Part shown: piece after piece, positions 6,381-30,256 of the stretch
Position numbering within the stretch: the first letter of the stretch is position 1
Layout of the letters: each line of letters starts with the position of its first letter
Assembly (NCBI GenBank): GCA_963169045.1
Contig: CAUJDF010000060.1
Span: forward strand, 1-32,076
DNA from: Myxococcota bacterium
Lineage (GTDB): Bacteria; Myxococcota_A; Bradymonadia; UBA7976; UBA1532
Direction: 5' to 3'
Length of the DNA stretch: 32,076 bases
Program-made: the position numbers and the translations under genes
The notes under the pieces: generated by a model
What the model was told of the DNA's origin: nothing
What the model saw: the letters and a program-made list of their open reading frames with translations, nothing else
Database searches by the model: none

Positions 6381-6409
6381 TTCGTGCCCCGCGGGTTTCG
6401 TGGTAGCCT
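6381..6409 (+). promoter_or_regulatory. Candidate promoter of the TPR-STAS-PAS-PP2C operon
   Basis: A weak -35 TTCGTG (6381-6386), a 17-bp spacer and -10 TAGCCT (6404-6409) end 7 nt before the GTG at 6417. As at 147-152, this spacing predicts a leaderless transcript, and no Shine-Dalgarno sequence is seen before the GTG. Confidence 0.4.
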
Positions 6410-6416
6410 CGCGGTC

Positions 6417-14231: not shown

Positions 14232-14749
14232 AGCCGCTGCTCGACCTGCTCGCGCGCATCGGCGCCGGCTTCCTCGACCCGTACGTCGTGGTCGACGCGG
14301 AGCGCAAGGTCGTCGCCTTCAACCGCCACTACCACGCGCTGTTCCCGCGGGCGGTCGCGCGCAAGCTCGAGGGCTCGACGTGCTGCCAGTTCCTCGCGCT
14401 CGGCGTGTGCGAGAAGGCGCAGAAGTGCCTGGCGCAGCGTTGCCGCAGCGAGGGCGCGCCGCTGCGCTTCGACGAAATCGACGCGCGCGTCGAAGGCGAC
14501 GAGGCCGACCGCCGTCTCATCGTCAGCGCCGTCGCGGTCGACGACGCGGCGCTGATCTTCCTCCGCGACGTCTCCGACGCGGCGGACGTCCAGCGCAAGT
14601 ACAAGAACGTGCAGGACCAGGAAGCGCGCGAGAAAGAACGTCTGCGCGAGGAGATCCTCCGCAAGACGAAGGAGCTCATGGACACGAACCAGGAGCTCAA
14701 CCGGGTGCAGAAGGAGCTCATGGGCTTCAAGAAGGGGCTTTTCGGGTAG
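14228..14749 (+). CDS. PAS-like domain protein with Cys cluster and coiled coil
   Basis: A 173-residue protein. The GTG at 14228 overlaps the STAS stop as GTGA. Residues ~12-118 look like a PAS fold (DPYVVVDAERKVVAFNRHYH ... LIFLRDVSD) with an inserted cysteine cluster C52, C53, C61, C67 and C72. Cysteine sets at this place in PAS domains can bind metals or act in redox sensing. Residues ~120-165 form a strongly charged coiled coil (EKERLREEILRKTKELMDTN), suited to dimerising or passing a signal to a partner. It ends 5 nt before the phosphatase gene. There is no kinase or output domain, so it presumably acts by binding a neighbour, most simply the phosphatase. Confidence 0.78.
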   Translation: MKPLLDLLARIGAGFLDPYVVVDAERKVVAFNRHYHALFPRAVARKLEGSTCCQFLALGVCEKAQKCLAQRCRSEGAPLRFDEIDARVEGDEADRRLIVSAVAVDDAALIFLRDVSDAADVQRKYKNVQDQEAREKERLREEILRKTKELMDTNQELNRVQKELMGFKKGLFG

Positions 14750-14754
14750 ACGGG

Positions 14755-16386: not shown

Positions 16387-16520
16387 AGCGCCGTCCCGGA
16401 GCGCCATCACTTCCCGCGGCGGACTCGAACGCCCGTCGCCGCGACGTCGGTCTGTGGACGCGATCCATCCTGCGCCGAATGGCGCGCGCTCTGTGCGCCG
16501 ATCGCATGCGCCCGCCAGTC

Positions 16521-16540
16521 GTGACGAACTGTCGGTTCAC
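16521..16540. terminator. Imperfect dyad after the phosphatase operon
   Basis: GTGACGAACTGTCGGTTCAC is an imperfect inverted repeat (GAAC-TGTCG-GTTC core) in the 200-bp gap between the operon end and the convergent AbiEii-type gene. It may be a terminator or binding site. No gene is seen in 16387-16586. Confidence 0.3.
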
Positions 16541-16586
16541 GATGGCGATCGACTTCGCAATGGCTTCGCAGCGGTCGGCTGGAGAA

Positions 16587-17252
16587 TCAGGCGCCGGACG
16601 GCCAGGCCATCCGCTGAAGACGCTCGACGAGCTCGTCACGAAACTGCCGGAGTTCGTCTGCGCCGACGGGACGCAACAGATGCAGGCGATGGGCGTCCGT
16701 CGGCGCCTGCGCCAGCACCCACGCGAGCGTGGCCGGATCGAGCCCGGCGTCCTTGTGCGCCGCGCCCTCGAGATGCGCCAGGAGATCGATCCCCTCGCGC
16801 GACAGCTGGTACAGGTCGACCAGGTCTTTGACCTCGGACCGGCCGAGGGCCGCACACAGCTTGTTCGCGACGAGGTCCGGCAGGGCGTCGTAACGGATGC
16901 CGCTCGCCTCCGGCTTCTCATGGATTGGTACGACCTGTGGGACGGGCTCGTGCACCACGTCGACGATCGTAGACTCGCCTTCCACGCGCGCTTCGTATCG
17001 GCGGAATCCGGGGGCCCGGCGCCGCTCCACGAGCGCGATGCCCGCGGTCTGCGCCACCGAGCCGAGCGCAGCGCTGACGACGTCGAGGTCGTCCGCCGTG
17101 GGGCAGAAAAGGTCGAGGTCCTCGGACAGACGGTGATGCAGGTAACCGGCGCTGAGCGCGGCGCCGCCGGACAGGTAGAAGCCGCCGACGCCGGCGAGCG
17201 CGTCGAGGATCCTACGTTGCGCTGCCGTCAGGCTCGTCTCGGAGAAGCCCAA
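16587..17252 (-). CDS. AbiEii-type nucleotidyltransferase toxin (second pair)
   Basis: A 221-residue protein with canonical AbiEii motifs: SGGAALSAGYLHHRLSEDLD (residues 28-47) carries the GG and the metal-binding D45/D47, D98 is a likely third acidic residue, and PDLVANKLCAALGR plus KDLVDLYQL (about 125-150) carry the conserved Lys residues. This motif set fits type IV toxins that transfer nucleotides to RNA. I place the start at TTG 17252 because GGAGG lies 4 nt upstream and no ATG or GTG fits. This start makes the gene overlap its upstream partner by 41 nt, implying coupling. It is more typical of the family than the protein at 368-970 and is not its close copy. Confidence 0.85.
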   Translation of the reverse strand: MGFSETSLTAAQRRILDALAGVGGFYLSGGAALSAGYLHHRLSEDLDLFCPTADDLDVVSAALGSVAQTAGIALVERRRAPGFRRYEARVEGESTIVDVVHEPVPQVVPIHEKPEASGIRYDALPDLVANKLCAALGRSEVKDLVDLYQLSREGIDLLAHLEGAAHKDAGLDPATLAWVLAQAPTDAHRLHLLRPVGADELRQFRDELVERLQRMAWPSGA

Positions 17253-17508
17253 GCCGCCTCCAACCGTCGAACAGCCAGGTCCAGAACGCAGCGCGACGGC
17301 CGACGAAGCGCGCGACGGCCGGCAGCTCGCGCGCGACGGACGCCGGGTCGACGTACGCCCACACTTCGTCCGGGCGCGCTTCGCGCAGCAAAAGGCCGAG
17401 CGTGGGGAGATGTTCCGGGTGCGCGGGATCGCGGACGATGCGCCGCAACTCACCGCGCGTGAGGCGGCGGTCCCAGCAGAAGGAGGGCACTTCGTCGTCC
17501 GCGGACAT
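17212..17508 (-). CDS. Putative antitoxin partner of the second AbiEii-type toxin
   Basis: A 98-residue protein starting MSADDEVPSFCWDRRLTRGE. It is acidic and basic in patches, mostly helical, with a Trp-rich C-terminal part (FWTWLFDGWRRLGLL). It shows no clear winged-helix DNA-binding domain of the classic AbiEi type and I do not recognise a family. Placement upstream of the toxin with a 41-nt overlap is the main argument for an antitoxin role. The start is 62 nt from the divergent lipoprotein gene, so the two may share regulatory DNA. Confidence 0.75.
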   Translation of the reverse strand: MSADDEVPSFCWDRRLTRGELRRIVRDPAHPEHLPTLGLLLREARPDEVWAYVDPASVARELPAVARFVGRRAAFWTWLFDGWRRLGLLRDEPDGSAT

Positions 17509-17558
17509 GCCGACCACCTTAGCCCGCATTCGGCTGCAGAGGAAGGCGCGCGCCGTGT

Positions 17559-17564
17559 CATGCT
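17559..17564 (+). promoter_or_regulatory. Possible -10 (CATGCT) of a leaderless lipoprotein gene
   Basis: CATGCT ends 6 nt before the ATG at 17571. The match to consensus is only moderate (A2, T3, T6), but the distance agrees with the arrangement at 147-152, 6404-6409 and 23854-23859. Confidence 0.3.
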
Positions 17565-17570
17565 GGGGCG

Positions 17571-17777
17571 ATGCGCGTCGCTCTCTTCGCTCTCGTCGCG
17601 CTCTGCGCGTGCTCGTCGCAGCGCAAGGACGCCTGGCGCGGCTGCTCCGCGGCGCTCGCCGCGGGCACCGGCGACTGCGACTTCCTGCGGATGTGCGCGA
17701 ACGAGGCGCCGCTCGACGCCGACCAGCGCGCGCGGCTGGCGCAGCGAGTCGCCGAGAAGGGCTGCGCGCCGCCCTGA
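17571..17777 (+). CDS. Small cysteine-rich lipoprotein
   Basis: A 68-residue protein. The N-terminus MRVALFALVALCAC is a short lipoprotein signal with probable lipidation at C14 (LCAC). The mature part of ~55 residues carries three more cysteines at C25, C36 and C42 and a last one at C64, spaced as if for two disulfides. I recognise no family. The stop abuts the stop of the convergent next gene with no spacer. Codon usage is like its neighbours, which supports a real gene despite its size. Confidence 0.65.
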   Translation: MRVALFALVALCACSSQRKDAWRGCSAALAAGTGDCDFLRMCANEAPLDADQRARLAQRVAEKGCAPP

Positions 17778-18407
17778 TCAGCGCAGACCGGGCTTCGCGG
17801 CCGGAAAGACGCCGGGCGGCACGCGCAGGAAGCAGGCGCTGCCGCCGTACACCGCGCCGTGCGCCTCGGTCTCGAACGGAATCTCGAGGAAGTGCGGCAC
17901 CTTGGCGGCTTTCGCCGCAGCGCACGCCCGCGCGATGTCGTCGGCGGTGCGCGCGCGCCGGAAGCCGTCGGCCAGCAGCAGCGCCGAGCCCTCGAGCGGC
18001 AGCAGCATCTGGACCTGGGAGCCCTCCGCGCGGACCGGCCACAGGTCGTACACGGCGCCGCCGCGCATGTACGACTGAATCGTGCGGCGGAGGAACGCGA
18101 CCATCACCGTGCCGCGGTCCCGGTGCTGGCGCAGCGCGACGCTGTCCGGCGCGCGCACCGAGAGGTGGACCGCCCCGGGCGCGCCCTTCGCCACCACCTC
18201 CGGCTGCAGCGTCATGCTGACGAGGTCCCGGTTCTTGCCGAGGTCCTCGCCCTGGGGCGGACCGACGACCTCGGTGAGGCGGCCGACGACGACCACGTCG
18301 GCGCTGGCGCACAACCACTCGACGCTGTCGGCGATGGCGATCTCGGCCCGCGCCGGCGCCGCCGTCGTCAGGACCGCCCACCACATCACGTGCGTTCCGT
18401 ATCGCAT
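17778..18407 (-). CDS. Secreted protein of unknown function
   Basis: A 209-residue protein. Residues 1-21 form a signal peptide ending APARA. The mature N-terminus (DSVEWLCASADVVVVGRLTE) resembles a recurring type of exported protein in myxobacteria and planctomycetes with a compact beta-rich fold; that is from memory of the motif and not a search. A region such as GTVMVAFLRRTIQSY follows, with a C-terminal half of mixed structure. There is no catalytic motif I can defend. Its stop touches that of the lipoprotein gene, and the start is 39 bp from the end of the next minus-strand gene, so the two may be co-transcribed unless the hairpin at 18440-18457 separates them. Confidence 0.7.
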   Translation of the reverse strand: MRYGTHVMWWAVLTTAAPARAEIAIADSVEWLCASADVVVVGRLTEVVGPPQGEDLGKNRDLVSMTLQPEVVAKGAPGAVHLSVRAPDSVALRQHRDRGTVMVAFLRRTIQSYMRGGAVYDLWPVRAEGSQVQMLLPLEGSALLLADGFRRARTADDIARACAAAKAAKVPHFLEIPFETEAHGAVYGGSACFLRVPPGVFPAAKPGLR

Positions 18408-18439
18408 GTACCGATCAACGCGCCGGCGGCGGGGAAGAT

Positions 18440-18457
18440 CCGCGGATCACTCCGCGG
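18440..18457 (-). terminator. Hairpin overlapping the stop of the lipoprotein hydrolase
   Basis: On the minus strand CCGCGGA-GTGA-TCCGCGG is a perfect 7-bp stem with a 4-nt loop. The stop codon TGA lies in the loop. It could terminate the long transcript or limit read-through to the downstream gene. Confidence 0.45.
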
Positions 18458-21400
18458 GGCGCGGGTACACGTTGAGGACGACGGGGCCGGCGTCCTCTTT
18501 GTCGTAGGCGGAGACGACGATGACCACGGACTGGCCGGCGCCGATCGTGAGGTGGATCTGCGAGGTGGGCACGCCGCCGACGTCGTCGGAGCAGCCGAGC
18601 TCGCGGGCCCGGTCGCAGTCGTCGGGGAAGAGGGTCAGCACCGTGTCGCCGGCGGAGCCCAGCGTCGAGACGACGTAGACGCCGTCGGCGGGCGCCGTCC
18701 AGCGCAGGGCGAGGTCCGGCGCGTCCTTGCCCGAGCCGAGCGGGCTGCAGTCGCCCGGATCCCAGGTGTCGGGGCGGCCCTCGAGCGTGCCCTGGTAGAC
18801 GGCCACCCCGACCGCCTGGCCGAGGTCGCCGGCGGCGCAGGTGCCCCCGCGGCAGGCCTCGAACGCGGCGCAGTCGGGGTCGGCGCAGTCGGCCGCGCCG
18901 TCGCCCTCGTCGTCGGCGCCGTCGTCGCAGGCGGTCTCGGCGGGCGCCGGGCAGGCGTCCGTGCCGGTGCAGCGGGGGTCGGCGCAGTCGGCGAGGCCGT
19001 TGCCGTCCTCGTCGCCGCCGTCGTCGCAGGCCGGCTCGGGGCAGGCGAGCGAGCGCAGGCACTCGTCGTCGGCGCAGTCGAGCAGGCCGTCGCCGTCGTC
19101 GTCGACCTCGTTGTCGCAACCGACCTCCCGGCACGCGTCGAGGTTCGCGCAATCGGTGTCGGCGCAGTCGATCGCGCCGTCGGCGTCGCCGTCGAGGCCG
19201 TCGCGGCAGGCGACCTCCATGCACGGCTCGCGGCCGTTGCAACCGGAATCGGCGCAATCGGTCGCGCCATCGCCGTCCTCGTCCTGGCCGTCGCCGCAGC
19301 TCGGCTCCTGGCAGGGTCCCCGCTCAAAGCAATCGGGATCGGCGCAGTCGATGGCGCCGTCGCGGTCGCCGTCGCCGCCGTCGTCGCACACCACCTCGTT
19401 GCAGGGCTCGCGGCCGGCGCACTCCGGATCGGCGCAGTCGGCCATGCCGTCGCCGTCGTCGTCGCCGCCGTCGTCGCACATGAGCTCGCGCGCCGGCTGC
19501 AGCGTCGGCACGCCGTCGGCGAGCGCCGTCTGCCAGAAGCGCACGGTCATCTGCCGCAGCGTGGCGTTGCGGTAGATCGTGAAGTGCCCCTCGGCCGGGT
19601 CGAGGTAGGTGGCCAGCGTCAGCGGCGCGCCCGACGCGGACTGCGCGTTGCCGCGCACCGGGAGCGGCGCGGGCTCCGGCGCGCCGACGCCGAACGGATC
19701 GACGTCCCAGCCCGGCGGGTCGAACGTCGGCAGCCCCGCCGACAACGTCAGCTGGTCCATGCCGCGCGGCGTCGTCGTGTCGTCGGTGAAGCCGTTGATC
19801 ACGAAGACGTGGTTGCCCGCCGGCCGCGCCGGCGTGCCGCGCCACAGCCGCGCGAAGTTGTGCGGGTCGACCACCTCGCTGCCGAGCTGCATCAGCTGCA
19901 GCGCCGGCGAGAACAGGTCGAGCGGGCCGTCGTTGCCGAGCATCGTGCGCACGACGCGCTCGAAGTCGAGCAGGTCCTTGCGCTCGAGGATCGTCAGCGT
20001 GAGATACGAGCTGAGCCCGTTGAACACGTACGCCGCATACTCGGACGAGACCGCCGCCGTCAGCGCACCGGCGAGCGAGCCCTGCGAGTGGCCGCCGTAG
20101 ACGATGCGCGAGGCGTCGATGGGCGGCAGGCCCTCGAGGCCGACGAGCCGCTCGCGAATGATGCGCGTGAAGAACGCGTTCTCGACCGCCTGCTGGCGGA
20201 AGTTCGTCCGGCCCGCCTCCGGGTTGAGGAAGTTGAACGTGGGCAGCTCCGGCCCGCCCATCACCCCGGCACGCTCGCCGTGGAACTGCGGCATGAACGA
20301 GAACACGACGAAGCCGGCGTCGAGGATCTCGCGGAGCCAGCCGCTGCGCAGGTGTTCCCACGGGCCCCAGCCGGTGCCGTCGATGAAGACGAGCGCCGGG
20401 CGCGGTCCTGCGGGCGGCGTCTCGAAGTCACGCATCGCCACCGCGAACGGCACCGGCTCCCAGCGCTGGATCGCGGGCGTGCCGTCCTCGGCGAGGACGA
20501 GACCGCCGCCGTTCTGGGTGTACGGCGTGGTGCCGGACTGGAAGACGGGCATCTCGACGAGGCCGCTGTAGGTCGTGATGCGCAGCCGTTTGCGGCTCCA
20601 GGCGGCGTCGCGCCGGAACGCGGTCGGCGCGCGCGTCTCGACGCGCCCCGGATCCATGACGAGGTCGCGCATGGCCTGGAGCTCAGCGACCGGGTCCTGC
20701 GGCGTGAACACCGTCGCCATCGCCACCGACGCCGGGTCGAGGCCCGCGGCGGGGACGCAGGCGCGCAGCGGGCCGAAGGACTCGCCCCAGCGTGAGCCGT
20801 CGCCGGCCCACGCCGCCTCGAAGGCCGGCGGCGGGGTCGCGGGGCGGCCCTGGACCGCGCCGAAGCTCCGCAGCACCACGAGGCCGTAGGGCGTGCCCGG
20901 CCGGAGCACCGTGCCGGCGGTGTTCTTCACCTGCAGCGTCTGCGCGGCGATGTACGTGCCGTCCGCCGCCCGCACCGAGACCTCGACCGGCACGCGACGC
21001 CCGCAGCCCTCGCCGAGCTCGAGCAGCTGGATGGGCGACGCCGGTGCGATGGACTCGGCCGGCGTCGGCAGCGGCAGGTCGGCGATCGGGTCCTGGAAGG
21101 CGACGTAGACGATGGGCATGTTCGCGAAGCCGCGGACGCGCCCCTCGATCTCGCGGAGGATGCGCGGCAGCGAGGCGCCGCGGACCGGGAAGGTCGACAG
21201 GTCGGGCGTGCCGGCCTCGGTCAGGCGCGCGTCCGAGGGCCAGGGCGTGTCGTAGAAGCCGGCGCCCGTCGGGTCGAAGCGCGGGCGGGCGGCGGGCGGG
21301 CCCGCGTCCGGCGCGGCATCCCGAGCGGCCGCGTCGGCGGGCGCGGCGTCCGGCGTCACCGCGTCGGGCGTGGCGGCGTCCGGCGGCGTGGCGTCGGGCG

Positions 21401-21512
21401 GCGCGGCGTCCCCGGCGGAGGCGTCTCCGAGCGGCGCGTCGTCGCTCTTCGGCGTGTCGTCGCAGCCGGCGAACAGCCCCACCAGCAGCAGGAGGGGAGC
21501 GGATCGAGTCAT
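18447..21512 (-). CDS. Large lipoprotein alpha/beta hydrolase with Asp/Cys repeats and a PPC-like domain
   Basis: A 1021-residue lipoprotein with lipobox LFAGC (Cys17). A 55-residue Asp/Ala/Pro linker (e.g. DATPPDAATPDAVTPDAAP) follows, as in myxobacterial surface lipoproteins. Residues ~80-670 form an alpha/beta-hydrolase with nucleophile S476 in YGGHSQGS. Some of its features (FVVFSFMPQFHGERAG) resemble virulence-factor lipase-like proteins. Next come seven Asp/Cys repeats (679-890, metal-binding type) and a PPC-like C-terminal beta domain (about 895-1021, VYVVSTLGSAGDTVLTLF). It likely sits on the outer membrane as an esterase or lipase; the substrate is unknown. The ATG at 21512 was chosen for the signal peptide. 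Confidence 0.88.
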   Translation of the reverse strand: MTRSAPLLLLVGLFAGCDDTPKSDDAPLGDASAGDAAPPDATPPDAATPDAVTPDAAPADAAARDAAPDAGPPAARPRFDPTGAGFYDTPWPSDARLTEAGTPDLSTFPVRGASLPRILREIEGRVRGFANMPIVYVAFQDPIADLPLPTPAESIAPASPIQLLELGEGCGRRVPVEVSVRAADGTYIAAQTLQVKNTAGTVLRPGTPYGLVVLRSFGAVQGRPATPPPAFEAAWAGDGSRWGESFGPLRACVPAAGLDPASVAMATVFTPQDPVAELQAMRDLVMDPGRVETRAPTAFRRDAAWSRKRLRITTYSGLVEMPVFQSGTTPYTQNGGGLVLAEDGTPAIQRWEPVPFAVAMRDFETPPAGPRPALVFIDGTGWGPWEHLRSGWLREILDAGFVVFSFMPQFHGERAGVMGGPELPTFNFLNPEAGRTNFRQQAVENAFFTRIIRERLVGLEGLPPIDASRIVYGGHSQGSLAGALTAAVSSEYAAYVFNGLSSYLTLTILERKDLLDFERVVRTMLGNDGPLDLFSPALQLMQLGSEVVDPHNFARLWRGTPARPAGNHVFVINGFTDDTTTPRGMDQLTLSAGLPTFDPPGWDVDPFGVGAPEPAPLPVRGNAQSASGAPLTLATYLDPAEGHFTIYRNATLRQMTVRFWQTALADGVPTLQPARELMCDDGGDDDGDGMADCADPECAGREPCNEVVCDDGGDGDRDGAIDCADPDCFERGPCQEPSCGDGQDEDGDGATDCADSGCNGREPCMEVACRDGLDGDADGAIDCADTDCANLDACREVGCDNEVDDDGDGLLDCADDECLRSLACPEPACDDGGDEDGNGLADCADPRCTGTDACPAPAETACDDGADDEGDGAADCADPDCAAFEACRGGTCAAGDLGQAVGVAVYQGTLEGRPDTWDPGDCSPLGSGKDAPDLALRWTAPADGVYVVSTLGSAGDTVLTLFPDDCDRARELGCSDDVGGVPTSQIHLTIGAGQSVVIVVSAYDKEDAGPVVLNVYPRPAE
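18843..19478 (-). repeat. Seven tandem ~90-bp units coding Asp/Cys metal-binding-like repeats
   Basis: Each 30-residue unit follows the pattern CDDGxDxDGDGxxDCADPDC followed by a third-turn Cys. The sixth unit has 32 residues. DxDGDG-like sequences resemble EF-hand and MopE loops, and the Cys residues pair within units. Units differ at DNA level, so the array is old and under selection. Confidence 0.9.
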
Positions 21513-21691
21513 GGCGCCTCCAGACGCGCGATCGGACGCCGGGCCGACACGTCCGGTCAAGTCCGTCTCGCGACCGGCCTTGACAGCGCGACGGCGCCAG
21601 CCTCCCCGCCGCGCCCCCTCCGATGGCGCCCTCGCGGCTGCGCACGCACCTGGACATGGGACGCCGCGAGCGCGGCGCGCCCGGCCTCGAC

Positions 21692-21781
21692 GGCGTCACG
21701 CCCCGCGAGAGCCGGCTCGTCGAGGGGGCGCCCGCTCCCGACGTTCGAGGCGTGACGCCGGGCGCGGCCGTCCGGTATCGT
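21692..21781 (+). promoter_or_regulatory. Promoter with two GGCGT-N-ACGCC operator-like sites
   Basis: GGCGTCACGCC (21692-21702) and GGCGTGACGCC (21749-21759) are odd palindromes of the same type on opposite strands, 57 bp apart centre to centre. The second covers the expected -35 region of the -10 TATCGT (21776-21781). A leader with GGGGAGG precedes the ATG at 21806. They look like repressor or activator sites for that gene. The rest of the 293-bp gap 21513-21805 shows nothing else. Confidence 0.5.
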
Positions 21782-21805
21782 CCGCGCATCCAACGGGGAG
21801 GCACC

Positions 21806-22375
21806 ATGAAGCTCGTACGCGTATCGATGGCGGTGGGGTTGCTGTGGGCGGCGCAGGCCGGCGCGCAGGCGCCCGGCGTGCAGATCGGGCCCGGCGGCGT
21901 GAAGGTGACCGGCGCCGACGGGCAGACCGTCGACATCAAGAAGGGCGGCGTGACCGTCGACAACGGCGCCGCCGGCAAGGTGAAGGTCGACAAGGGCGCG
22001 GCAACCGGCGGCGCGACGCCTCCGGCCAAGGTCGCGGCGCCGGGCGGCGCACAGGGCCCGGTCAACTGCCACGGCAACCAGAAGCTCGAGTTCGACGGCA
22101 TCACGATCCGCAACGGGAGCGGCCCGGCCATCCGCTCCAGCGGCAACTGCAGCATCACCGCGAAGAACTGCAGTCTCGAGGGCTCGTCCTTCGCCGTCGA
22201 GGCGTCGGGCAACTCGAGCGTGACGCTCCACGCCTGCAAGCTGACCGGCAAGGAGAACGCCATCAAGGCGAGCGGCAACTCGAGCGTCACCCTCAAGGAC
22301 ACGGCGCTCACCGGCGGCGTGTCGAAGTCGGGCCTCGCGGTGATCGAGAACGCCGGCGGCAGCACCGGGCTCTGA
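21806..22375 (+). CDS. Small secreted protein with beta-helix-like repeats
   Basis: A 189-residue protein with signal peptide 1-20 (AQAGA cleavage). A Gly/Lys-rich region (VDIKKGGVTVDNGAAGKVKV) is followed by three ~23-residue repeats from residue ~107 to 170: SSGNCSITAKNCSLEGSS, EASGNSSVTLHACKLTGK and KASGNSSVTLKDTALTGG. This is typical of right-handed parallel beta-helix turns with stacked Asn/Ser and Cys/Thr. It is short, so possibly a partial solenoid or a surface adhesin-like element. GGGGAGG lies at normal distance before the ATG. Function unknown. Confidence 0.78.
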   Translation: MKLVRVSMAVGLLWAAQAGAQAPGVQIGPGGVKVTGADGQTVDIKKGGVTVDNGAAGKVKVDKGAATGGATPPAKVAAPGGAQGPVNCHGNQKLEFDGITIRNGSGPAIRSSGNCSITAKNCSLEGSSFAVEASGNSSVTLHACKLTGKENAIKASGNSSVTLKDTALTGGVSKSGLAVIENAGGSTGL

Positions 22376-22474
22376 CTCGAGTTTCGCCACTTCGGCGTCG
22401 ACGAGGCCGAGCAACGAACGAGTCGCCGCAAGGAGCGAGGGCCGCAGGCAGCCGAAGGTGGTGAAACTCGAGTC
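22374..22474. repeat. Long inverted repeat between convergent genes, possible intergenic palindromic element
   Basis: The left arm (22374-22396) and right arm (22451-22474) are inverted copies of about 24 bp with one mismatch and one indel. Both carry GACTCGAGTTTC at the outer end and TTCGGC at the inner end. They enclose 54 bp made of GAGC/CGAACGAG-like tracts. The left arm includes the last bases of the upstream stop. It may be a bidirectional terminator or one copy of a dispersed mobile intergenic repeat. Confidence 0.7.
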
Positions 22475-22477
22475 TGA

Positions 22478-23215
22478 TCAGCGGAGGTCGCTGAAGCCGC
22501 GCACGCGCAGGTCGAGGCCGACGCCGCGCGCGATCTCGCCCCGGGGCGCCACCGCCCACGTCCACTCCCGACCGCCCGCCGGCAGCGCGGCGCCCGCCAG
22601 CGCGTCCTCCACCTCGCCCGTCGAGTACACGCGCTGCCAGTCGGTGACGAGGCACGCCCGCGGAAACGACCGCAGCCACGCCAGGTGGCCCTCGACGAGC
22701 GTCCGGGCGAAGGCGCCGTCCGGCTCGACGCCGAGCCACGCGCAGGGCAGCAGCGGCAGCTGTGAGAGCAGGTTGGCCGAGACGACGAGGTCGATACGCG
22801 GGTCGTCGAGGAACGGCCCGGCGGGCGCGGCAGGTCCGCGGGTGCGGTGCACGGCTTCGAGGCAGCCGGTCACGTCCGCCTCGACGTGGAACACGTTCGA
22901 GAGCGCGCGCGTGCGGCGCCGCGCCGTCCGCAGGTGCACCACGTCGGCGAGCAGCACGCGCGCGAACCGGGCGGCGAGCGCGTCGATCGGGACGTCCAGC
23001 AGCAGGCCGGACCCGGCGACGAGCACCGTGTCGTGGCGCGCGCAGCCGTCGGCCGCCTCGAGGACGGTCGCGCACGTCGCCTCGAGGTGCGGCGCCCACG
23101 CGGCCCGGTGCCGGCGGTGCCGCGCCTGGATCGCAATGATCTCACGGAGATGACCCATCTCGCGCCACGCCCGGGCGCAGGGCGTCGTCGCGTGCTCGAG
23201 CCACTCCGCGATCAG
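22478..23215 (-). CDS. Rossmann-fold, methyltransferase-like protein
   Basis: A protein of about 245 residues. A nucleotide-binding-like glycine segment (DTVLVAGSGLLLDVPIDALA, about 65-84) is followed by RVLLADVVHLRTA and a strand with catalytic-type DLVVSANLLSQLPLLP, as in SAM-dependent methyltransferases. An N-terminal RHRRHRAAWAPHLEAT segment recurs in a family of uncharacterised bacterial proteins I recall. The start is uncertain: a CTG at 23215 overlaps the Uma2 stop (CTGA), while an ATG at 23158 would lose a likely conserved N-terminus (TTPCARAWREMGHLREI). No Shine-Dalgarno sequence supports the ATG. Co-transcription with the Uma2 gene is likely. Confidence 0.7.
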   Translation of the reverse strand: MIAEWLEHATTPCARAWREMGHLREIIAIQARHRRHRAAWAPHLEATCATVLEAADGCARHDTVLVAGSGLLLDVPIDALAARFARVLLADVVHLRTARRRTRALSNVFHVEADVTGCLEAVHRTRGPAAPAGPFLDDPRIDLVVSANLLSQLPLLPCAWLGVEPDGAFARTLVEGHLAWLRSFPRACLVTDWQRVYSTGEVEDALAGAALPAGGREWTWAVAPRGEIARGVGLDLRVRGFSDLR

Positions 23216-23784
23216 GACGTCAGCTCGCGCAGCAGCTCGGCCTGGGCATAGATCTCGGGCAGCGGCACCTCGATCCCGAGCGAGGCGAACGGGACCACCT
23301 CGTCGCCGGTGTACGCGCGATAGGACCAGGCGCCGTCGTCCATGCGCGTGAACACCTCGACGCGGCGCTCGCCCGGCGTGACGAGGACGTACTCGCGCAG
23401 GGAGGCGCGCCGCTGGTAGTGCGCGAACTTCGCGCCGCGATCGTCGGCCTCGGTCGAGGGCGAGAGCACCTCGACGATGAGGAGCGGGTTCAGGAGCGTC
23501 GGCGGCCTGGTCGGCGCGAGCTCGGGGCGGCCGCACGTCGCGACGAGGTCCGGGTAGGCGTACGCGCCCGTCTCCTCGACGCGCACCCGTTGGCTGTGCG
23601 TCCAGAACAGGCAGAGTCGCTCGCTCGCCCCACCCCGAAGCACGCAGGCGAGCTGGCCGACGACGGCGCCGTGGACGGGGTCGCTCCCGGCCATCGCCAC
23701 CACGTCGCCGTCGAAGTACTCGTGCCGCTCGGCGCTGTTCGCGTCGAGCTCCAGGTACTCCGCTTCGGACATCGCCCGTCCCAT
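23212..23784 (-). CDS. Uma2-family (DUF820) endonuclease-like protein
   Basis: A 190-residue protein with the family pattern from its first residues: MGRAMSEAEYLEL, HEYFDGDVVAMAGSDPVHG (21-39), AYPDLVATCG with D79, and LLIVEVLSPSTEADDRGAKF (101-120) with E105. This is the PD-(D/E)xK nuclease-like core of Uma2 proteins. They are common and often multi-copy in cyanobacteria and myxobacteria; their biological role is poorly known. GAGG 6 nt before ATG 23784 decides the start. The gene ends by overlapping the methyltransferase-like gene. Confidence 0.9.
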   Translation of the reverse strand: MGRAMSEAEYLELDANSAERHEYFDGDVVAMAGSDPVHGAVVGQLACVLRGGASERLCLFWTHSQRVRVEETGAYAYPDLVATCGRPELAPTRPPTLLNPLLIVEVLSPSTEADDRGAKFAHYQRRASLREYVLVTPGERRVEVFTRMDDGAWSYRAYTGDEVVPFASLGIEVPLPEIYAQAELLRELTS

Positions 23785-23829
23785 GCGCCACCTCGGGTCC
23801 ATTGTCGCGGCGAGCCGGTGGGACGCAAG

Positions 23830-23859
23830 TTGCCGCGGGCCTCGCGGGCGTTCTAGAGT
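23830..23859 (+). promoter_or_regulatory. Candidate promoter of the second TPR-led operon
   Basis: TTGCCG (23830-23835), an 18-bp spacer and TAGAGT (23854-23859) make a recognisable -35/-10 pair. The -10 ends 7 nt before ATG 23867, again predicting a leaderless transcript. Confidence 0.5.
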
Positions 23860-23866
23860 CGGCGCG

Positions 23867-26311
23867 ATGCGGCTCATCTCACGCCTGTTGCTGGCGGCGG
23901 CGCTGCTCGGCGCGCCGGACGCGGCGTTCGCGCAGGGGCGGTACGCGCCGCAGGGGGCGGCGCAGCGCCACTTCTCCGAGGGCGAGGCGCTCGTCGAGGC
24001 CGGCGACGCGCTGCGCGACAAGGGTGACGCCGACGCCGCCAAGGCGAAGTACCAGGCCGCGGCGGAGTCCTTCCGCGAGGCGGTCGACGCCGACCCCGCC
24101 TACAGCGACGCCTACGCCAAGCTCGGGCTCGTCTACTACACGCTCGGGCGCTCCGCCGACGCGATTCCCCTGCTCGAGCGCGCGCTTCAGAGCGACCGTG
24201 GCAACGTCGAGCTGATGTATTGGCTCGGCAATCACATGATGCGCGCGGGGCGCGCCGCCGAGGCGCTGCGCCTGCTCGAGCGCGTCGCCGCCCAGCCCGA
24301 CGCCTTCCCCGAGGTCTATCTCGTCCTCGGGACGCACTATTACAAAGAGGCGAAGGACTATCCCAAGGCGCGCCTGTCGCTCGAGCAGTACGTCCGCCTG
24401 CGTCCCGACGACGTGAACGCGCGCGGCATGCTCGGCAACACCTACTTCAAGCTCGAGCTGTTCCGCGAGGCGCTCGCCGAGTTCGAGGCGATACAGCGCC
24501 TCGCGCCGGGCAACCTCAGCGTCCAGGTCAACATCGGCAACGCGCACTTCCAGCTCGGCCACTACGAGAAGGCGGTGGAGCTGCTGCAGGGCGCGCTGCA
24601 GAAGGACCCGAAGCGCGAGAGCGTGCTGTTCAACCTCGCGCAGAGCTACTTCCAGCTGCAGCGCTTCGACGACGCGGTGACCTACTACCGCCGCTTCCTC
24701 GCCGACAACCCGAAGAGCTTCAACGGCCACTACTTCGCCGGCAGCGCGCTGCTCGAGCTCGGGCGGCTCGACGAGGCCGAGAAGTCGCTGCGCGCGGCGA
24801 GCGCGCTGAAGAAGGACGTGGCGCAGCCCTGGTACAAGCTGGGGCTGATCCAGCTGCGGCGCGGGCAGGCGGCGGCCGCCGAGAAGGAGTTCCGCGAGGC
24901 GCTCGCCCGCAAGAAGGACGACGCCTGGATCCTCTCGGCCATCGGCACGGCGAAGCGCGCCGCCGGCGACCTCGAGGCGGCGGCGCAGCTCCACGGGCAG
25001 GCGGCGGCGAAGGCGCCGGACCAAGCGCGGCTGCACGGCAACGTGGCGCTGACGGCGCTGAAGGCAGGGCGCGTCGACGACGCGGCGCAGGCCGCCGAGA
25101 AGGCGCTCGCGCTCGACGCGAAGGACGCGTGGCTGCGGCAGCTCGGCGCGTCGGTGTTCGCGGCCCGCGCGGGCGCGCGCCTCGCCGCCGGCGACGCGGC
25201 CGAGGCCGAGGGGCTCGCGCGGCGGGCGCTCGACCTTGCGCCGGGCGACGCGGCGCTGAAGTCGACGCTGGCGGTCGCCCTGGCGGTCCGCGGCGACGCG
25301 GCGGGCGCGCAACAGCAGGCCGCCGAGGCGCTCGCGGCGCAGCCCGACCTCGGGGCCGCGCGCTACGCCGCCGGGCGCGCGCTCCTCGCCGCGAAGAAGT
25401 TCGCCGAGGCGCGCACGCAGTTCGCGGCCGCCTTCGAGAAGCTCCCGACGCCCGAGGTCGCCGCCGCCGAGGGCGCCGCCGCGCTGCTCGCCGGCGACGT
25501 CGACGGCGCGATCGAGCGTCTCGACGCCGCCGAGGCGCAGCGCGGCGCCGGCGACGCCGAACGGGCGCTGCGGACGATCCGCGCGCTGGCGCACGCCGTC
25601 CGCCTCGTCGCCCAGCTCAACGCCCAGCCGAAGCTGACCGACCTGCGCGTCGCGCTCGAGGCCGAGGACGCGCTCCCGAAGGCCATCGCCGCGCGCGTCC
25701 GTTACGCCGGCGTCGTGATGGGCCTGCGCGCCGGCGATCCGAACTCGTCGCGGGTACACCTCGGCCAGCTGCTCGCGCTGCTGAACGAGACGAAGACCCA
25801 GGAGGCGCGGGCCATCGCGGCCAACGCGACGCCCCGGCACCTCGACTACCTCGGCGCGTACGTCAACGTGCTCGCGAAGCGGCACGACCTGGCGAAGCCG
25901 GTGCTCGACCAGCTGCGCGCCGGCCGCAAGAAGGGCGCGCCGGAGCTGCGGCTGCTCCAGCTCGTGTACGCGCAGCTCGCCGAGAAGCGCTGGGAGGCCG
26001 GCGATCCGAACGGCGCCGCCGCCCTCTGGAAGGACGCCGCCGAGCTCGACCGCGACCCGGCCGCCGAGCACAACCTCGCCGTCGTCGACTGGACGCAGGG
26101 CCGCAAGAAGAAGGCCGAGACGAAGTGGCGCGCGCTGCTCGGCCAGGTGCCCGAGGCCGCGTTCAACCTCGGCGTCGCGCTCGAAGCCGCCGGCAAGCAC
26201 GCCGAGGCCTACGAGCAGTTCGCGCGCTACGGGAAGTCCGGCGGCACGTTCGCGGCGAAGGCGCGCGAGATCGCCGAGGCCAAGCGCCGCATCTTCGGGT
26301 ACGAGCCGTGA
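23867..26311 (+). CDS. Secreted TPR protein heading the second operon
   Basis: An 814-residue protein with signal peptide 1-23 (cleavage near AAFAQ). Residues ~40-500 are regular TPRs (for example AYAKLGLVYYTLGRSADAIP and LGNTYFKLELFREALAEFEA). The rest is helical repeats of lower regularity (RAGDPNSSRVHLGQLL, PEAAFNLGVALEAAGKHAEA). It should be a periplasmic scaffold. Its stop overlaps the GTG of the next gene as GTGA. ATG 23867 was chosen over upstream in-frame ATGs because of the signal peptide and promoter. It differs from the giant TPR protein at 6417 by being exported. Confidence 0.88.
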   Translation: MRLISRLLLAAALLGAPDAAFAQGRYAPQGAAQRHFSEGEALVEAGDALRDKGDADAAKAKYQAAAESFREAVDADPAYSDAYAKLGLVYYTLGRSADAIPLLERALQSDRGNVELMYWLGNHMMRAGRAAEALRLLERVAAQPDAFPEVYLVLGTHYYKEAKDYPKARLSLEQYVRLRPDDVNARGMLGNTYFKLELFREALAEFEAIQRLAPGNLSVQVNIGNAHFQLGHYEKAVELLQGALQKDPKRESVLFNLAQSYFQLQRFDDAVTYYRRFLADNPKSFNGHYFAGSALLELGRLDEAEKSLRAASALKKDVAQPWYKLGLIQLRRGQAAAAEKEFREALARKKDDAWILSAIGTAKRAAGDLEAAAQLHGQAAAKAPDQARLHGNVALTALKAGRVDDAAQAAEKALALDAKDAWLRQLGASVFAARAGARLAAGDAAEAEGLARRALDLAPGDAALKSTLAVALAVRGDAAGAQQQAAEALAAQPDLGAARYAAGRALLAAKKFAEARTQFAAAFEKLPTPEVAAAEGAAALLAGDVDGAIERLDAAEAQRGAGDAERALRTIRALAHAVRLVAQLNAQPKLTDLRVALEAEDALPKAIAARVRYAGVVMGLRAGDPNSSRVHLGQLLALLNETKTQEARAIAANATPRHLDYLGAYVNVLAKRHDLAKPVLDQLRAGRKKGAPELRLLQLVYAQLAEKRWEAGDPNGAAALWKDAAELDRDPAAEHNLAVVDWTQGRKKKAETKWRALLGQVPEAAFNLGVALEAAGKHAEAYEQFARYGKSGGTFAAKAREIAEAKRRIFGYEP

Positions 26312-27228
26312 GGCGGCTGCTCGCGCTCCTGCTGTTGCTCGCGGCGCCGGCCCGCGCGCAGGACGCGCCGCCCATCACGGTCGGCGTGTACGCGCCGCGC
26401 CTCGTCTTCACCGACTCGCTCGCGCGCACGAAGATGGCGGAGCAGATCGCCGGCGCGCTGCAGTCGGCCACCGGCCGCCCGATGCGCGGCCGCGGCTTCG
26501 CCACCGGCGAGGAGTTCTTTCACCAGGTGGCCGGCGGCGAGGTGCAGTTCGCCGTCGTCGACGCGCAGGTGCTCGCCGAGCGCGGCGACCTCGACCCGCT
26601 CGCGCAGGGCCTCTCCGGCGGGCAGGCGGCGAAGCCGATGGTGCTCGTCGTGCGCGCGTCGCTCGGCGCCGCCCGCATCGCCGACCTGCAGGGCCGCGAG
26701 CTCGCCAGCGTCAACGCCGGGGGCCGCGACGCGCAGTTCCTCGGCAACTTCCTGCTGCAGGGGCAGATCGACGCCGGCTTCTTCAAGCAGGCGCGCGAGG
26801 TGCGCGACGCGCAATCGGCGCTCAGCCTCGTGCGGCTCGGCAAGGCGGACGGGACGTTCACCTACGCGGGCACCGAGGGCGACCTGCCCGCCGCGTTCAC
26901 GAGCCGGCCGGTGCCGCTGCCGGTCTTCGTGCGCACGCGCGACGACGTCGACCCGGCGGTCCTCGCCGCGGTGAAGGGCGCCATCGCCGGCGTCCGCGTC
27001 GAGCACCCGTCGCTCGACGGCTTCGGCCGCTACGACGGCGGCGCCCACGGCGCCCTGCGCGGCGCGCTGAAGGCCGAGCTGGCGCGGCCCGGGACCGCCC
27101 CCGTCATCGCCTCCTCCGGGGCGACGCTGCCGCCGGTGCCCGCGTTCCCCGAGCCGATCGCGGACGTGCCCGTCGTGCTGCCCGCGCCGGCGCTGCCGCT
27201 CCCCGCGCCCCCCCCCGACGAGTTCTGA
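26308..27228 (+). CDS. PhnD-like periplasmic substrate-binding protein
   Basis: A 306-residue protein with signal peptide 1-18 (APARA). The order of segments (ITVGVYAPRLVFTDSL, VQFAVVDAQVLAERGD, LASVNAGGRDAQFLGNFLLQ, LGKADGTFTYAGTEGDLP) fits the phosphonate/phosphite-type binding fold (PhnD/SsuA family) with two lobes. No ABC permease or ATPase lies nearby, so it more likely senses a ligand for a regulator than feeds a transporter. A Pro-rich C-terminus follows (LPAPALPLPAPPPDEF). The GTG at 26308 overlaps the TPR stop (GTGA). The HATPase gene follows after 4 nt. Ligand unknown. Confidence 0.78.
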   Translation: MRRLLALLLLLAAPARAQDAPPITVGVYAPRLVFTDSLARTKMAEQIAGALQSATGRPMRGRGFATGEEFFHQVAGGEVQFAVVDAQVLAERGDLDPLAQGLSGGQAAKPMVLVVRASLGAARIADLQGRELASVNAGGRDAQFLGNFLLQGQIDAGFFKQAREVRDAQSALSLVRLGKADGTFTYAGTEGDLPAAFTSRPVPLPVFVRTRDDVDPAVLAAVKGAIAGVRVEHPSLDGFGRYDGGAHGALRGALKAELARPGTAPVIASSGATLPPVPAFPEPIADVPVVLPAPALPLPAPPPDEF

Positions 27229-27232
27229 TCCC

Positions 27233-28180
27233 ATGGCCACCCGGGTGCTCGTCTTCGGCGAGGAGCTGCCGCTGCGGCCGGCCATCCGGGTGGCGGTCTG
27301 CGCGGGGGCCCGCGTCGAGCTCGTGGCCGATCCCGCGCGCCTCGTGGAGCGCGCCGAAGCCTTCGCGCCCGATCGCATCCTCTTCCACCACGACCACGCC
27401 GGCCCCGCGGCGATGCTCCTCGCGCGCCGCCTGGCGACGGTGGTGCCCGAGGCATCGCTCGTGCTGCTGTGCCACGCGTCGCCGCCGCCGGACCTGCACG
27501 ATCTGTTGCTCGAGCCCTGGTTCGGCCACCTGCTCGGCCTCGACAGCCCGTGGTTCATGGAGGCCCTGGCGGCGACGCTGGCGAAGCTCGGCGGGCAGGA
27601 GATCTTCGGCCTCGGCAGCCATCTGCCCTGGGGCACGCGTCTGTCGTCCTACGAGGTGGCGGGCAGCGACGACAAGCGCCACGTCTTCGATGGCATCGAG
27701 GCGTTCATGGGCGAGATGGGCGTGCGCGGGCGCATCGTCGCGCGGCTCCAGGCCGTCGCCGACGAGATGCTGATGAACGCCGTCTACGACGCGCCGCTCG
27801 ACGAGGCGCGCACACCCAAGTACGCCTCCCTGCCGCGCACCGTCCCGGTGGCGCTGCTCCCGCACGAGCGGCCGACGCTGCGCTTCGGGAGCGACGGCCG
27901 CACGTTCGGCATCAGCATCACCGATCCCTTCGGCGCCCTGACGCCCGAGACGCTCAAGCGCTACGTGGCCAAGGGCATGCGCCGCGGCGCCGACCAGATC
28001 GATCGCAAGCAGGGCGGCGCCGGCCTGGGTCTGTATCTCTTGTACGATTCGCTTCACACGATGTGTCTCAATCGCGCGCCCGGCCGCTGCACCGAGATGG
28101 TGGGTCTCATCGACATCCGCGGGAGCTTCCGCGACGTGGTCGAGGCCCCCAAGTCGTTCGGCTGCTTCGTGCGCACCTGA
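27233..28180 (+). CDS. Receiver-like plus HATPase protein (RsbW-like kinase candidate)
   Basis: A 315-residue protein. Residues 1-115 look like a receiver-fold domain (VLVFGEELPLRPAIR, DRILFHHDHAGPAAMLLARR) without a clear phosphorylatable Asp pair, so probably pseudo-receiver. Residues ~150-310 are a GHKL ATPase: N-box ADEMLMNAVYDAP (176-188, E178/N182), G1 DPFG (231-234) and G2 GGAGLGL (261-267). There is no dimerisation/His-phosphoacceptor domain, so it resembles anti-sigma-factor or Ser kinases of the RsbW/SpoIIAB group more than a histidine kinase. It would phosphorylate a STAS antagonist like the one at 13416. Operon position suggests it responds to the adjacent binding protein. Confidence 0.8.
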   Translation: MATRVLVFGEELPLRPAIRVAVCAGARVELVADPARLVERAEAFAPDRILFHHDHAGPAAMLLARRLATVVPEASLVLLCHASPPPDLHDLLLEPWFGHLLGLDSPWFMEALAATLAKLGGQEIFGLGSHLPWGTRLSSYEVAGSDDKRHVFDGIEAFMGEMGVRGRIVARLQAVADEMLMNAVYDAPLDEARTPKYASLPRTVPVALLPHERPTLRFGSDGRTFGISITDPFGALTPETLKRYVAKGMRRGADQIDRKQGGAGLGLYLLYDSLHTMCLNRAPGRCTEMVGLIDIRGSFRDVVEAPKSFGCFVRT

Positions 28181-28191
28181 AGGGGGCAGCC

Positions 28192-30156
28192 ATGCGGAGG
28201 ACGCTGGCATTTCTGGGGGCGCTGCTCGTCGCCGGGGCGGCCGTCGCGGTGCCGCGCCAGCGCAGCGCGGAGAACCGCGACGACGACGCCACGATCACGC
28301 TCACCATCCTCGAGCAGTCGATCCGGGGGGACGTGCGCAGCTTCTGCCGCGTGCGCCTCGTGGTCGTCAGCGAGGAGGAGCCGTTCTCGAACGGCGACAC
28401 GATCTCGATCCGCGTCTACGAGGACGACGTCGTCGGCGACGACGAGATCTGGTCCACGTCGTTCGACGTCAGCGGCGACGAGGTCCGCGCCGGTCGCGTG
28501 GACCGCACGTTCGACTGCGCCGCCAACATGGGCGACGACGTCGGCGACGCGCTCGAGTTCTACGCCGAGGCCACCGTCGAGAAGGACGAGTGCGGCATCG
28601 GCTGCGCCTACGACCGCCCCGAGACCGACAACATCCCCGTCGACGAGGTCGACGACGACGGCGCCGAGCAGGACGACGGCGCCGACGCCGCCCGCCCGAC
28701 GCCGCTCGGCGCGACGCCGAACCGCATCGGCCGCGATCCCGACTGGTTCGCGGTGACCCTGCTCGACCGCTCGATCATCGAGTTCGACGCCCTGCACGAC
28801 GCGAACGTGGGCCGCCTCGACGTCACCCTCTTCGACCCGAACGGCGTGCCGGTCGCGCAGGGCGCGGGCCACGACGACGCCACGCGCGTCGCGAGCCAGC
28901 CGCTGTCGCGCGGCGACTACAAGGTGCGGGTCGCCCCGCGCAACGGCAACGACTTCAACTTCTACGACGCGCAGCTGCGCGTGCTCACCGCCGGCTGCGA
29001 GCCCGGCTCCGTCGAGGAGGAGGCCTGCGGCCACTGCGGCCGACGGCGCCGCACCTGCACGCCCGACGCGCAGTGGGAGGCCTTCGGGCCGTGCATGGAC
29101 GAGGGCATGTGCGCGCCCGGCGACGAGCGCATGGCCGCCTGCGGGCGCTGCGGCACGTCGCTCGAGCGCTGCAACGACCGCTGTGGCTGGGAGGGCGGCG
29201 CGTGCATGGGCGAGGGCGCCTGCGCGCCGGGCGACGTCGACGTGCAGGTGTGTGTCGGCGGGCAACAGACGCGTCAGTGCGGCGAGACATGCCAGTGGGG
29301 CGAGCTCGGCGAGTGCGTGGGCCAGGAGTGCGGCCCCGCCGACACGCGGGAGTGTTACGACGGCCCCGAGGGCACCCAGGGGCGCGGCATCTGCCGCTCG
29401 GGCCGCCAGGGCTGCGAGGACGGCCGCTGGGGCGCCTGCGAGGGCGAGGTCGGGCCGACGGCGGAGCGCTGCGGCGACGAGATCGACAACGACTGCGACG
29501 GCCAGGTCGACGACGAGGACGACGAGTGCGGCGACGGGCCGGCGGTGGGCGACGACTGCCGCGCCGATCCCGACTGCGGCGACGGCCTCGTCTGCCTGCG
29601 GCCGCCGGCGGACCGCGGCTTCACCGACGGCTACTGCGGCCGCGGCGGCTGCACGCCCGACTGCCCCGAGGGCGCGGTCTGCGGCAAGGTCTTCGGGCGC
29701 AGCTACTGCCTGAAGCCGTGCGAGCGCGACCCGGACTGCCGGCAGGGCTACCGCTGCGCCGACGCCGACACGCCCGACAACTCGTTCGCGTGCATCCCGC
29801 GCTGCGTCGACGACAGCGACTGCGCGGATCCCATGTTCCCGACCTGCGACGTGCCGATCGGGCTGTGCGTGCCCGCGGGCGGCGGCCCCGGCGGCGATCC
29901 GGACGCGGGCGCCGGCCCGGGCGGCGGTCCGGGCGCGGGCCCCGGCGGCGGTCCGGGCGCGGGTCCCGGCGCGGGCCCGGGCGCCGGTCCGGGCGCCGGT
30001 CCGGGCGGCGGCGGCTCGCCCGACGGCGGCGTCGCCCCCGAAGACGAGCAGCCGACGGCCGAGGGCTGCTCCGGCTGCGACGCCACCGGCGCCACCCCCG
30101 CCCTCCCCTGGTTGCTGCTCGTCGCCTCGCCCCTCCTGCGGCGACGCCGCCGCTGA
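28192..30156 (+). CDS. Cys-rich surface protein with MYXO-CTERM-type sorting signal
   Basis: A 654-residue protein with signal peptide (MRRTLAFLGALLVAGAAVA). A PPC-like beta domain lies at about 170-265 (DPDWFAVTLLDRSIIEFDAL). A Cys-rich region (about 268-560) includes several CxxC-type pairs and a MopE-like motif CGDEIDNDCDGQVDD at 427. A Gly/Pro/Ala repeat (about 563-617) works as a wall-spanning spacer. C626/C629 (GCSGCDATGATP), a short hydrophobic stretch (LPWLLLVASPLL) and RRRRR form a MYXO-CTERM signal, directing processing and attachment to the cell surface. It is the last gene of the operon with the HATPase, 11 nt downstream, which is unusual for a regulator operon. Confidence 0.92.
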   Translation: MRRTLAFLGALLVAGAAVAVPRQRSAENRDDDATITLTILEQSIRGDVRSFCRVRLVVVSEEEPFSNGDTISIRVYEDDVVGDDEIWSTSFDVSGDEVRAGRVDRTFDCAANMGDDVGDALEFYAEATVEKDECGIGCAYDRPETDNIPVDEVDDDGAEQDDGADAARPTPLGATPNRIGRDPDWFAVTLLDRSIIEFDALHDANVGRLDVTLFDPNGVPVAQGAGHDDATRVASQPLSRGDYKVRVAPRNGNDFNFYDAQLRVLTAGCEPGSVEEEACGHCGRRRRTCTPDAQWEAFGPCMDEGMCAPGDERMAACGRCGTSLERCNDRCGWEGGACMGEGACAPGDVDVQVCVGGQQTRQCGETCQWGELGECVGQECGPADTRECYDGPEGTQGRGICRSGRQGCEDGRWGACEGEVGPTAERCGDEIDNDCDGQVDDEDDECGDGPAVGDDCRADPDCGDGLVCLRPPADRGFTDGYCGRGGCTPDCPEGAVCGKVFGRSYCLKPCERDPDCRQGYRCADADTPDNSFACIPRCVDDSDCADPMFPTCDVPIGLCVPAGGGPGGDPDAGAGPGGGPGAGPGGGPGAGPGAGPGAGPGAGPGGGGSPDGGVAPEDEQPTAEGCSGCDATGATPALPWLLLVASPLLRRRRR

Positions 30157-30181: not shown

Positions 30182-30256
30182 ATGCGCAAGCTCGGCATCG
30201 ACTGGTCGCGCTTCCGCGACGGGTCGCCGCCGGACGACAACCGCATCAAGGGGTGA
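30182..30256 (+). CDS. 24-residue ORF, possible gene remnant
   Basis: ATG 30182 opens MRKLGIDWSRFRDGSPPDDN and continues 4 more residues to a stop. The composition looks protein-like (no strong GC-shadow bias), but no family is recognised and no ribosome site precedes it. It overlaps the end of vapC on the other strand. It may be the start of a gene cut by arrival of the VapBC module, or simply a small protein. Confidence 0.25.
   Translation: MRKLGIDWSRFRDGSPPDDNRIKG

Follow-up and report, generated by a model that had tools for sequence, protein, structure and literature searches.

In most known partner switches, the sensor is cytoplasmic or part of the phosphatase, and the target held by the HATPase in the classical cases is a sigma factor. 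The canonical versions are the RsbU-RsbV-RsbW and SpoIIE-SpoIIAA-SpoIIAB systems (PMC8256260), and RsbU of Chlamydia is a membrane HAMP-PP2C phosphatase with a periplasmic sensor (PMC4552016, PMC8256260). In Sorangium, SpoIIE-like phosphatases occur as fusions in which the same polypeptide carries a binding domain for the periplasm (PF00532; PMC2887360). Separate binding proteins act as input elsewhere: AioX, ArrX and ArxX, orphan binding proteins of the PhnD-like type, pass their signal to a sensor histidine kinase (PMC5908839).

Here we analyzed a stretch of 32,076 nucleotides from a Myxococcota bacterium (genome G000), referred to as the window, which encodes components resembling those of RsbU/V/W of B. 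subtilis, namely a PP2C (SpoIIE) phosphatase, a STAS antagonist with a conserved serine and a putative GHKL kinase with the N-box Glu/Asn. As in Chlamydia RsbU, the phosphatase spans the membrane and carries a HAMP domain. Unlike RsbU/V/W, the gene unit includes separate periplasmic PhnD-like and TPR proteins as well as a PAS protein, the STAS protein is tail-anchored, the HATPase bears a degenerate receiver domain and no sigma factor gene lies nearby. The locus shares with AioX/ArrX/ArxX a PhnD-fold protein (Z 19.1–19.8) that lacks a transporter and whose operon also encodes a membrane signalling protein; however, its partner is a SpoIIE phosphatase instead of a histidine kinase, and the Cys and Ser-x-Ser/His residues are absent. 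The Sorangium fusions are the nearest myxobacterial precedent for binding-protein input to a SpoIIE phosphatase (PMC2887360), whereas here a separate PF12974 protein, which belongs to another binding-protein family, is accompanied by a TPR protein. By profile and by Foldseek rank, the PhnD-like protein is closest to BstB (PDB 7t1m; PMC10942540), a likeness of profile and fold; unlike the module described here, the gene for BstB belongs to a cluster of sterol genes that also encodes BstA and BstC (PMC10942540). In the open-access literature searched, we found no paper naming both SpoIIE and PhnD, and no relevant match for a binding protein combined with partner switching. The individual parts are all familiar; what is new, as far as that literature goes, is their combination with a two-protein periplasmic input and its phylum-wide conservation.

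Gene layout and the upstream phosphatase half

Window genes were delimited with a codon-usage caller (Table 1). An earlier sequence-only reading had described the four genes at 23867–30156 as one operon, and their open frames are all present as claimed: the stop codon of the exported TPR gene and the GTG start of the PhnD-like gene overlap in GTGA, the HATPase gene starts after a gap of 4 nt, and the gene for the Cys-rich protein follows 11 nt beyond the HATPase stop. Signal peptides are visible in the sequences of the first two proteins, which contain no Cys and no further membrane segment. Consistent with the same reading, which had the PhnD-like protein stand without transporter genes, neither an ABC permease nor an ATPase was found among the window genes scanned; lacking these adjacent genes, the locus is not a phosphonate ABC transporter. 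A scan of the window for promoters and terminators gave no more matches than expected by chance.

Table 1. Features of the window and their putative roles
Feature	Position	Strand	Evidence and remarks
Giant TPR protein	6384..13412	+	Pfam TPR families; length about 2330-2340 aa, as the start codon is uncertain; may be an accessory component
STAS protein, RsbV-like switch protein, tail-anchored	13416..14231	+	Pfam STAS E 4e-4; C-terminal TM 248-266
PAS-domain protein	14228..14749	+	Pfam PAS_4 E 0.0016, below cut-off; coiled-coil-like tail predicted
HAMP-SpoIIE/PP2C phosphatase, RsbU-like, two TM	14755..16386	+	Pfam SpoIIE E 2.2e-38, HAMP 8e-15
Intervening genes splitting the module	16387..23866	.	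AbiEii-like, Asp/Cys-rich protein, beta-helix, Uma2, others; unrelated
Exported TPR-repeat protein (gene 1)	23867..26311	+	814 aa; Pfam TPR; candidate periplasmic co-sensor/adaptor
PhnD-like periplasmic binding protein (gene 2)	26308..27228	+	306 aa; PF12974 E 1e-9; candidate ligand sensor
Degenerate receiver + GHKL ATPase (gene 3)	27233..28180	+	315 aa; RsbW/SpoIIAB-like; candidate STAS kinase
Cys-rich MYXO-CTERM surface protein (gene 4)	28192..30156	+	654 aa, 46 Cys; TIGR03382

The sequence-only reading had seen a puzzle in this arrangement, as no transmembrane linker appeared to be encoded. This claim was mistaken, since a gene for a two-TM HAMP-SpoIIE phosphatase (14755–16386) lies 7.5 kb upstream in the same window and on the same strand. 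The puzzle is thereby solved: STAS, PAS and HAMP-SpoIIE genes (13416–16386) form a second half of the module, on the same strand as the sensor half. In five relative loci (L026–L028, L041 and L042), these three genes lie upstream of the TPR gene in the same orientation; L041 and L042 have an unbroken STAS-PAS-SpoIIE-TPR-PhnD-HATPase array. Contiguous units lacking only the PAS gene occur in families f43 and f55, the full order is broken just by contig ends in G005 (L120 and L031) and G019 (L124 and L039), and in G053 and G054 the contig ends inside the TPR gene of a STAS-PAS-SpoIIE-TPR array. The gap between the SpoIIE and TPR genes measures 7480 bp in the window, compared to 862–2102 bp in L026–L028, 43 bp in L041 and 29 bp in L042. 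Because the same genes are contiguous or near each other in relatives, a longer unit is interrupted in the window genome; with 7.5 kb between them, the phosphatase and sensor halves are not one transcript here.

Many of the intervening genes are encoded on the strand opposite to the module. One of them (18447–21482, minus strand) specifies many Asp-rich Cys repeats of the DxDxDGxxDCxD type, which are likely calcium-binding, and a related gene occupies the same place in L027. The window contains two AbiEii-like nucleotidyltransferase genes (368–970, plus strand; 16587–17252, minus strand), and a VapC (PIN)/VapB toxin-antitoxin pair (30246–30850, minus strand) lies just 3' of gene 4 and convergent with it.

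The PAS gene, whose product is likely cytoplasmic, is kept between the STAS and SpoIIE genes in L026–L028, L041, L042 and L119–L124. The giant TPR protein may be a further part of the module. Its stop codon lies 3 nt upstream of the STAS start, and homologues precede STAS genes in several families (L026, L027, L120, L121, L124, L133 and L139), while in family f7 an OmpA-domain protein takes its place.

Conservation across the class and the phylum

A whole-genome profile search with gene 3 in a class sample of 57 genomes detected one copy in G000 and matches in 20 of the 57. Among 19 relative loci fetched for the HATPase alone, 17 show the order TPR-PhnD-HATPase on the same strand, with genes usually overlapping or a few nt apart. 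In one of the exceptions, L039, the HATPase gene sits at a contig edge and its partners are found on a different contig of that genome (L124); the other, L044 (G048), has a different arrangement. There, the HATPase gene overlaps a gene for a soluble SpoIIE protein, followed by genes for long proteins that contain STAS domains (one of these proteins apparently starts with a Ser/Thr kinase), as in a rearranged version of the switch. A TPR homologue lies upstream of the PhnD gene in all 39 PhnD loci (38/38 related loci). The recurrence of TPR-PhnD-HATPase is far beyond chance and marks a real conserved unit. The four-gene order proposed by the sequence-only reading thus recurs in Myxococcota for its first three genes; gene order is not peculiar to this strain, with the exception of the adjacency of gene 4.

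Gene 4 had been read as a Cys-rich surface protein with a sorting signal, and this description is well founded, as its C-terminal MYXO-CTERM/GC_trans_RRR signal scores 29.4 bits against TIGR03382, above the curated cut-off of 15.85 (NCBIfam), and the protein contains 46 Cys; against TIGR03901 it scores 18.0 (cut-off 20). In the original four-gene chain, this protein would be the outer sensor and the HATPase would have no membrane partner. Co-transcription of gene 4 with gene 3 is possible given their spacing, and a weak scan saw no terminator-like site between them. However, gene 4 is adjacent to the module in none of the fetched relative loci; full-length orthologues (41–47% identity) are found on other, unlinked contigs in G002, G005 and G006, an orthologue is also present in G004, which lacks the module, and a membrane partner, the HAMP-SpoIIE phosphatase, exists upstream. 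Synteny thus largely refutes the four-gene chain, which we regard as extremely improbable, and gene 4 was rejected as a chain member; it is a neighbour, possibly co-transcribed, outside the conserved module. The gene 4 family is Cys-rich and amplified, with 45 matching places in G000 and 77 in G002.

The two halves of the module are inherited together. A STAS profile matched in 21 of the 57 genomes, and every one of the 20 that have gene 3 is among them (Fisher p 1.7e-14 for co-occurrence over the 57 genomes, a value inflated by genome relatedness). Within the window's own family, seven genomes have both HATPase and STAS and six have neither (p 6e-4). The HAMP-SpoIIE profile tracks both, except in G033 (82% complete), where SpoIIE is missing; G004, without gene 3 and STAS, has just a distant SpoIIE. 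In family f4, HATPase, STAS and SpoIIE genes have all been retained although they reside on three separate contigs with different neighbours. As G000 yields a single clear match to each of the HATPase, STAS and SpoIIE profiles, the partners are unambiguous in this genome.

In a phylum-wide sample of 377 genomes, strong relatives of gene 3 occur in many families, and the PhnD profile, independently of gene 3, matches in 44 genomes. Twenty distant loci picked on PhnD alone have a TPR gene directly upstream in every case and a HAMP-SpoIIE gene upstream in 14 and downstream in one; of the five without SpoIIE nearby, at least two end near a contig edge. The SpoIIE-TPR-PhnD order therefore extends to more distant Myxococcota families, and several of these loci contain the complete STAS-SpoIIE-TPR-PhnD-HATPase unit, in which the genes overlap or abut. 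At L141 (f36), a 148-aa HATPase_c_2 protein above the Pfam cut-off takes the place of the HATPase, as would be expected if the role at this position is that of RsbW. Outside the class, a STAS gene adjoins the HATPase homologue in 13 of 16 loci; there, STAS is soluble and neither TPR nor PhnD accompanies it. STAS proteins encoded ahead of SpoIIE end in a membrane segment; where a HATPase gene alone is the neighbour, STAS is soluble and about 160 aa long (the L117 STAS in this comparison is cut by a contig end). In other families, proteins of ~1640–1690 aa are encoded near HATPase-STAS pairs (L104:3936-9005, L105:4641-9674, L106:12496-17409), the one in L104 combining Ser/Thr kinase, AAA, GAF and SpoIIE domains; from their neighbourhood, these giant proteins may provide a different input for the same switch.

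Features of the predicted switch and sensor proteins

The SpoIIE protein has predicted TM segments at residues 14–32 and 195–213, which enclose a periplasmic region of ~160 aa (about residues 33–194). Its motifs GGD, GDVTGHG, TDG and EDD are invariant, preserving the metal-binding Asp residues of PP2C enzymes, and its phosphatase domain matches solved PP2C phosphatases. The STAS profile aligns to the antagonist TM1442, placing Ser54 on the serine of its DSAG motif; this position is Ser in 47 of 48 homologues and Thr in one. Despite a Pfam match below cut-off (E 4e-4), Ser54 is thus a candidate phospho-acceptor. The STAS protein also has zinc-ribbon-like Cys residues.

Gene 3 matches Pfam HATPase_c_2 below cut-off (E 0.016), and PDB sequence searches with single proteins gave nothing useful. 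The N, G1 and G2 boxes are conserved in its family, with Glu178, D231 and G234 present in 40/40 homologues and Asn182 in 39/40, so that the protein is predicted to be a GHKL kinase. In its AlphaFold model (mean pLDDT 91.6), the second domain resembles SpoIIAB/RsbW (Foldseek TM-score by target 0.75–0.80). The N-terminal domain adopts a receiver fold, with Z 16.5 to Spo0F, a value that covers the receiver half and not the GHKL half, as receiver domains filled the VIA comparison of this model. The phospho-acceptor position holds an Asp in 24 of 40 homologues and a His in the window; the domain is therefore probably not phosphorylated in this genome. An active receiver was accordingly rejected for the window genome, as was the identity of a usual response regulator. 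Of the earlier label, a receiver-like/HATPase regulator, the receiver fold and the GHKL domain stand, but the protein is no usual response regulator or histidine kinase and is instead of the SpoIIAB/RsbW type.

Leptospira LvrC and LvrB are the best full-length Foldseek matches. Together with the receiver fold and a HisKA/HATPase gene that follows STAS in L137, these matches would fit a receiver-controlled histidine kinase or pseudokinase in a phosphorelay, instead of a serine kinase for STAS. Yet the architecture of gene 3 includes no Pfam-matched His-bearing pair of dimerization helices, the receiver Asp is a His in the window, STAS and SpoIIE are recurrent partners, and the replacement in L141 is a canonical RsbW-like protein. 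We consider a phosphorelay quite unlikely and a STAS kinase the preferred role.

The PF12974 match of gene 2 is above cut-off (E 1e-9), and its AlphaFold model (mean pLDDT 85.5) has the two-lobed PhnD fold. PtxB, ArrX, HtxB, PhnD and AioX are tied as structural matches at Z around 19–20 (best 19.8, PtxB/ArrX), with rmsd 2.9–3.0 over 228–232 residues for the best; BstB reaches Z 18.4, yet was ranked first by Foldseek and profile search. In AioX and PhnD, the oxyanion is held by Ser-x-Ser and a His (PMC5908839). When aligned by profile to ArrX, gene 2 preserves neither the second Ser nor the His; GGRD stands at this place in the window protein, which contains no Cys. Across the gene 2 family the oxyanion pocket residues are not conserved and an equivalent of AioX Cys106 is absent. 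Because the usual pocket residues are missing, a ligand is unlikely to be bound in the phosphonate manner, and phosphonate or arsenic sensing is unsupported.

Some loci have envelope-related neighbours. In f31, one or two TonB-dependent receptors are encoded between SpoIIE and TPR (L130:3092-7220, L132:13366-15438, L144:10475-12484), a hint at an imported ligand; in G350 (L143:13154-16431), TPR-PhnD has MlaE, ABC ATPase and MlaD genes next to it, a hint at lipid traffic; and in f4 the gene after the HATPase is Omp85/POTRA-like. As pointers to an envelope cargo, these neighbours are leads only. They are, together with the rank of the sterol binder BstB as closest solved relative by profile and Foldseek (PMC10942540), what speaks for PhnD and TPR as a transport or trafficking unit, for example for a lipid or another poorly soluble molecule, with the switch regulating the cargo path or being a passenger of the operon. 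Most loci lack a transporter gene, however, and the SpoIIE-TPR-PhnD order is kept while the envelope neighbours vary, which makes this alternative unlikely. Sensor and carrier roles of the PhnD/TPR pair are mutually compatible.

A proposed periplasmically gated partner switch

A partner switch of the RsbU/RsbV/RsbW type, gated by a periplasmic PhnD/TPR pair, is in our judgement the best explanation and a quite likely one. The parts with their intact catalytic motifs, their conserved order and their co-occurrence are read from sequence; against a switch, the HATPase, STAS and PAS Pfam matches are all below their cut-offs. A ligand or a state of the envelope would be read by the PhnD-like protein and the exported TPR protein, which, as gene order and co-inheritance suggest, may act on the periplasmic region of the SpoIIE protein. 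The HAMP domain would relay the signal to the PP2C domain, which would dephosphorylate the membrane-tethered STAS protein at Ser54. The receiver-HATPase would be the opposing kinase and STAS binding partner, judging from its fold, its motifs and the frequent adjacency of HATPase and STAS genes. Dephosphorylated STAS could then capture the HATPase, releasing whatever the latter holds; we infer every one of these contacts, the direction of signalling and the output. No sigma factor or other target turned up next to the module in the scan of window genes.

The sensing chain from surface to cytoplasm proposed by the sequence-only reading hence survives as a chain from periplasm to cytoplasm, which is the best reading, but without gene 4, which synteny excludes, and with its linker present upstream. 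In this six-gene system, which occurs across much of the phylum, a membrane phosphatase that is probably under the control of two exported proteins would flip a protein switch inside the cell. For a more specific version, we see an even chance: the PhnD-like and exported TPR proteins would jointly serve as receptor, controlling a HAMP-SpoIIE phosphatase whose substrate is a tethered STAS protein, and such systems would form a phylum-wide, as yet undescribed Myxococcota class that may sense an envelope lipid or a TonB-delivered molecule and whose output may not be a sigma factor.

Input through separate binding and TPR proteins would be a new way for a SpoIIE-STAS-HATPase switch to receive periplasmic signals, comparable to what AioX provides for a histidine kinase. 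At least six gene families of Myxococcota would thereby acquire a coherent function, and what these bacteria sense via their orphan PhnD proteins becomes a directly testable question.
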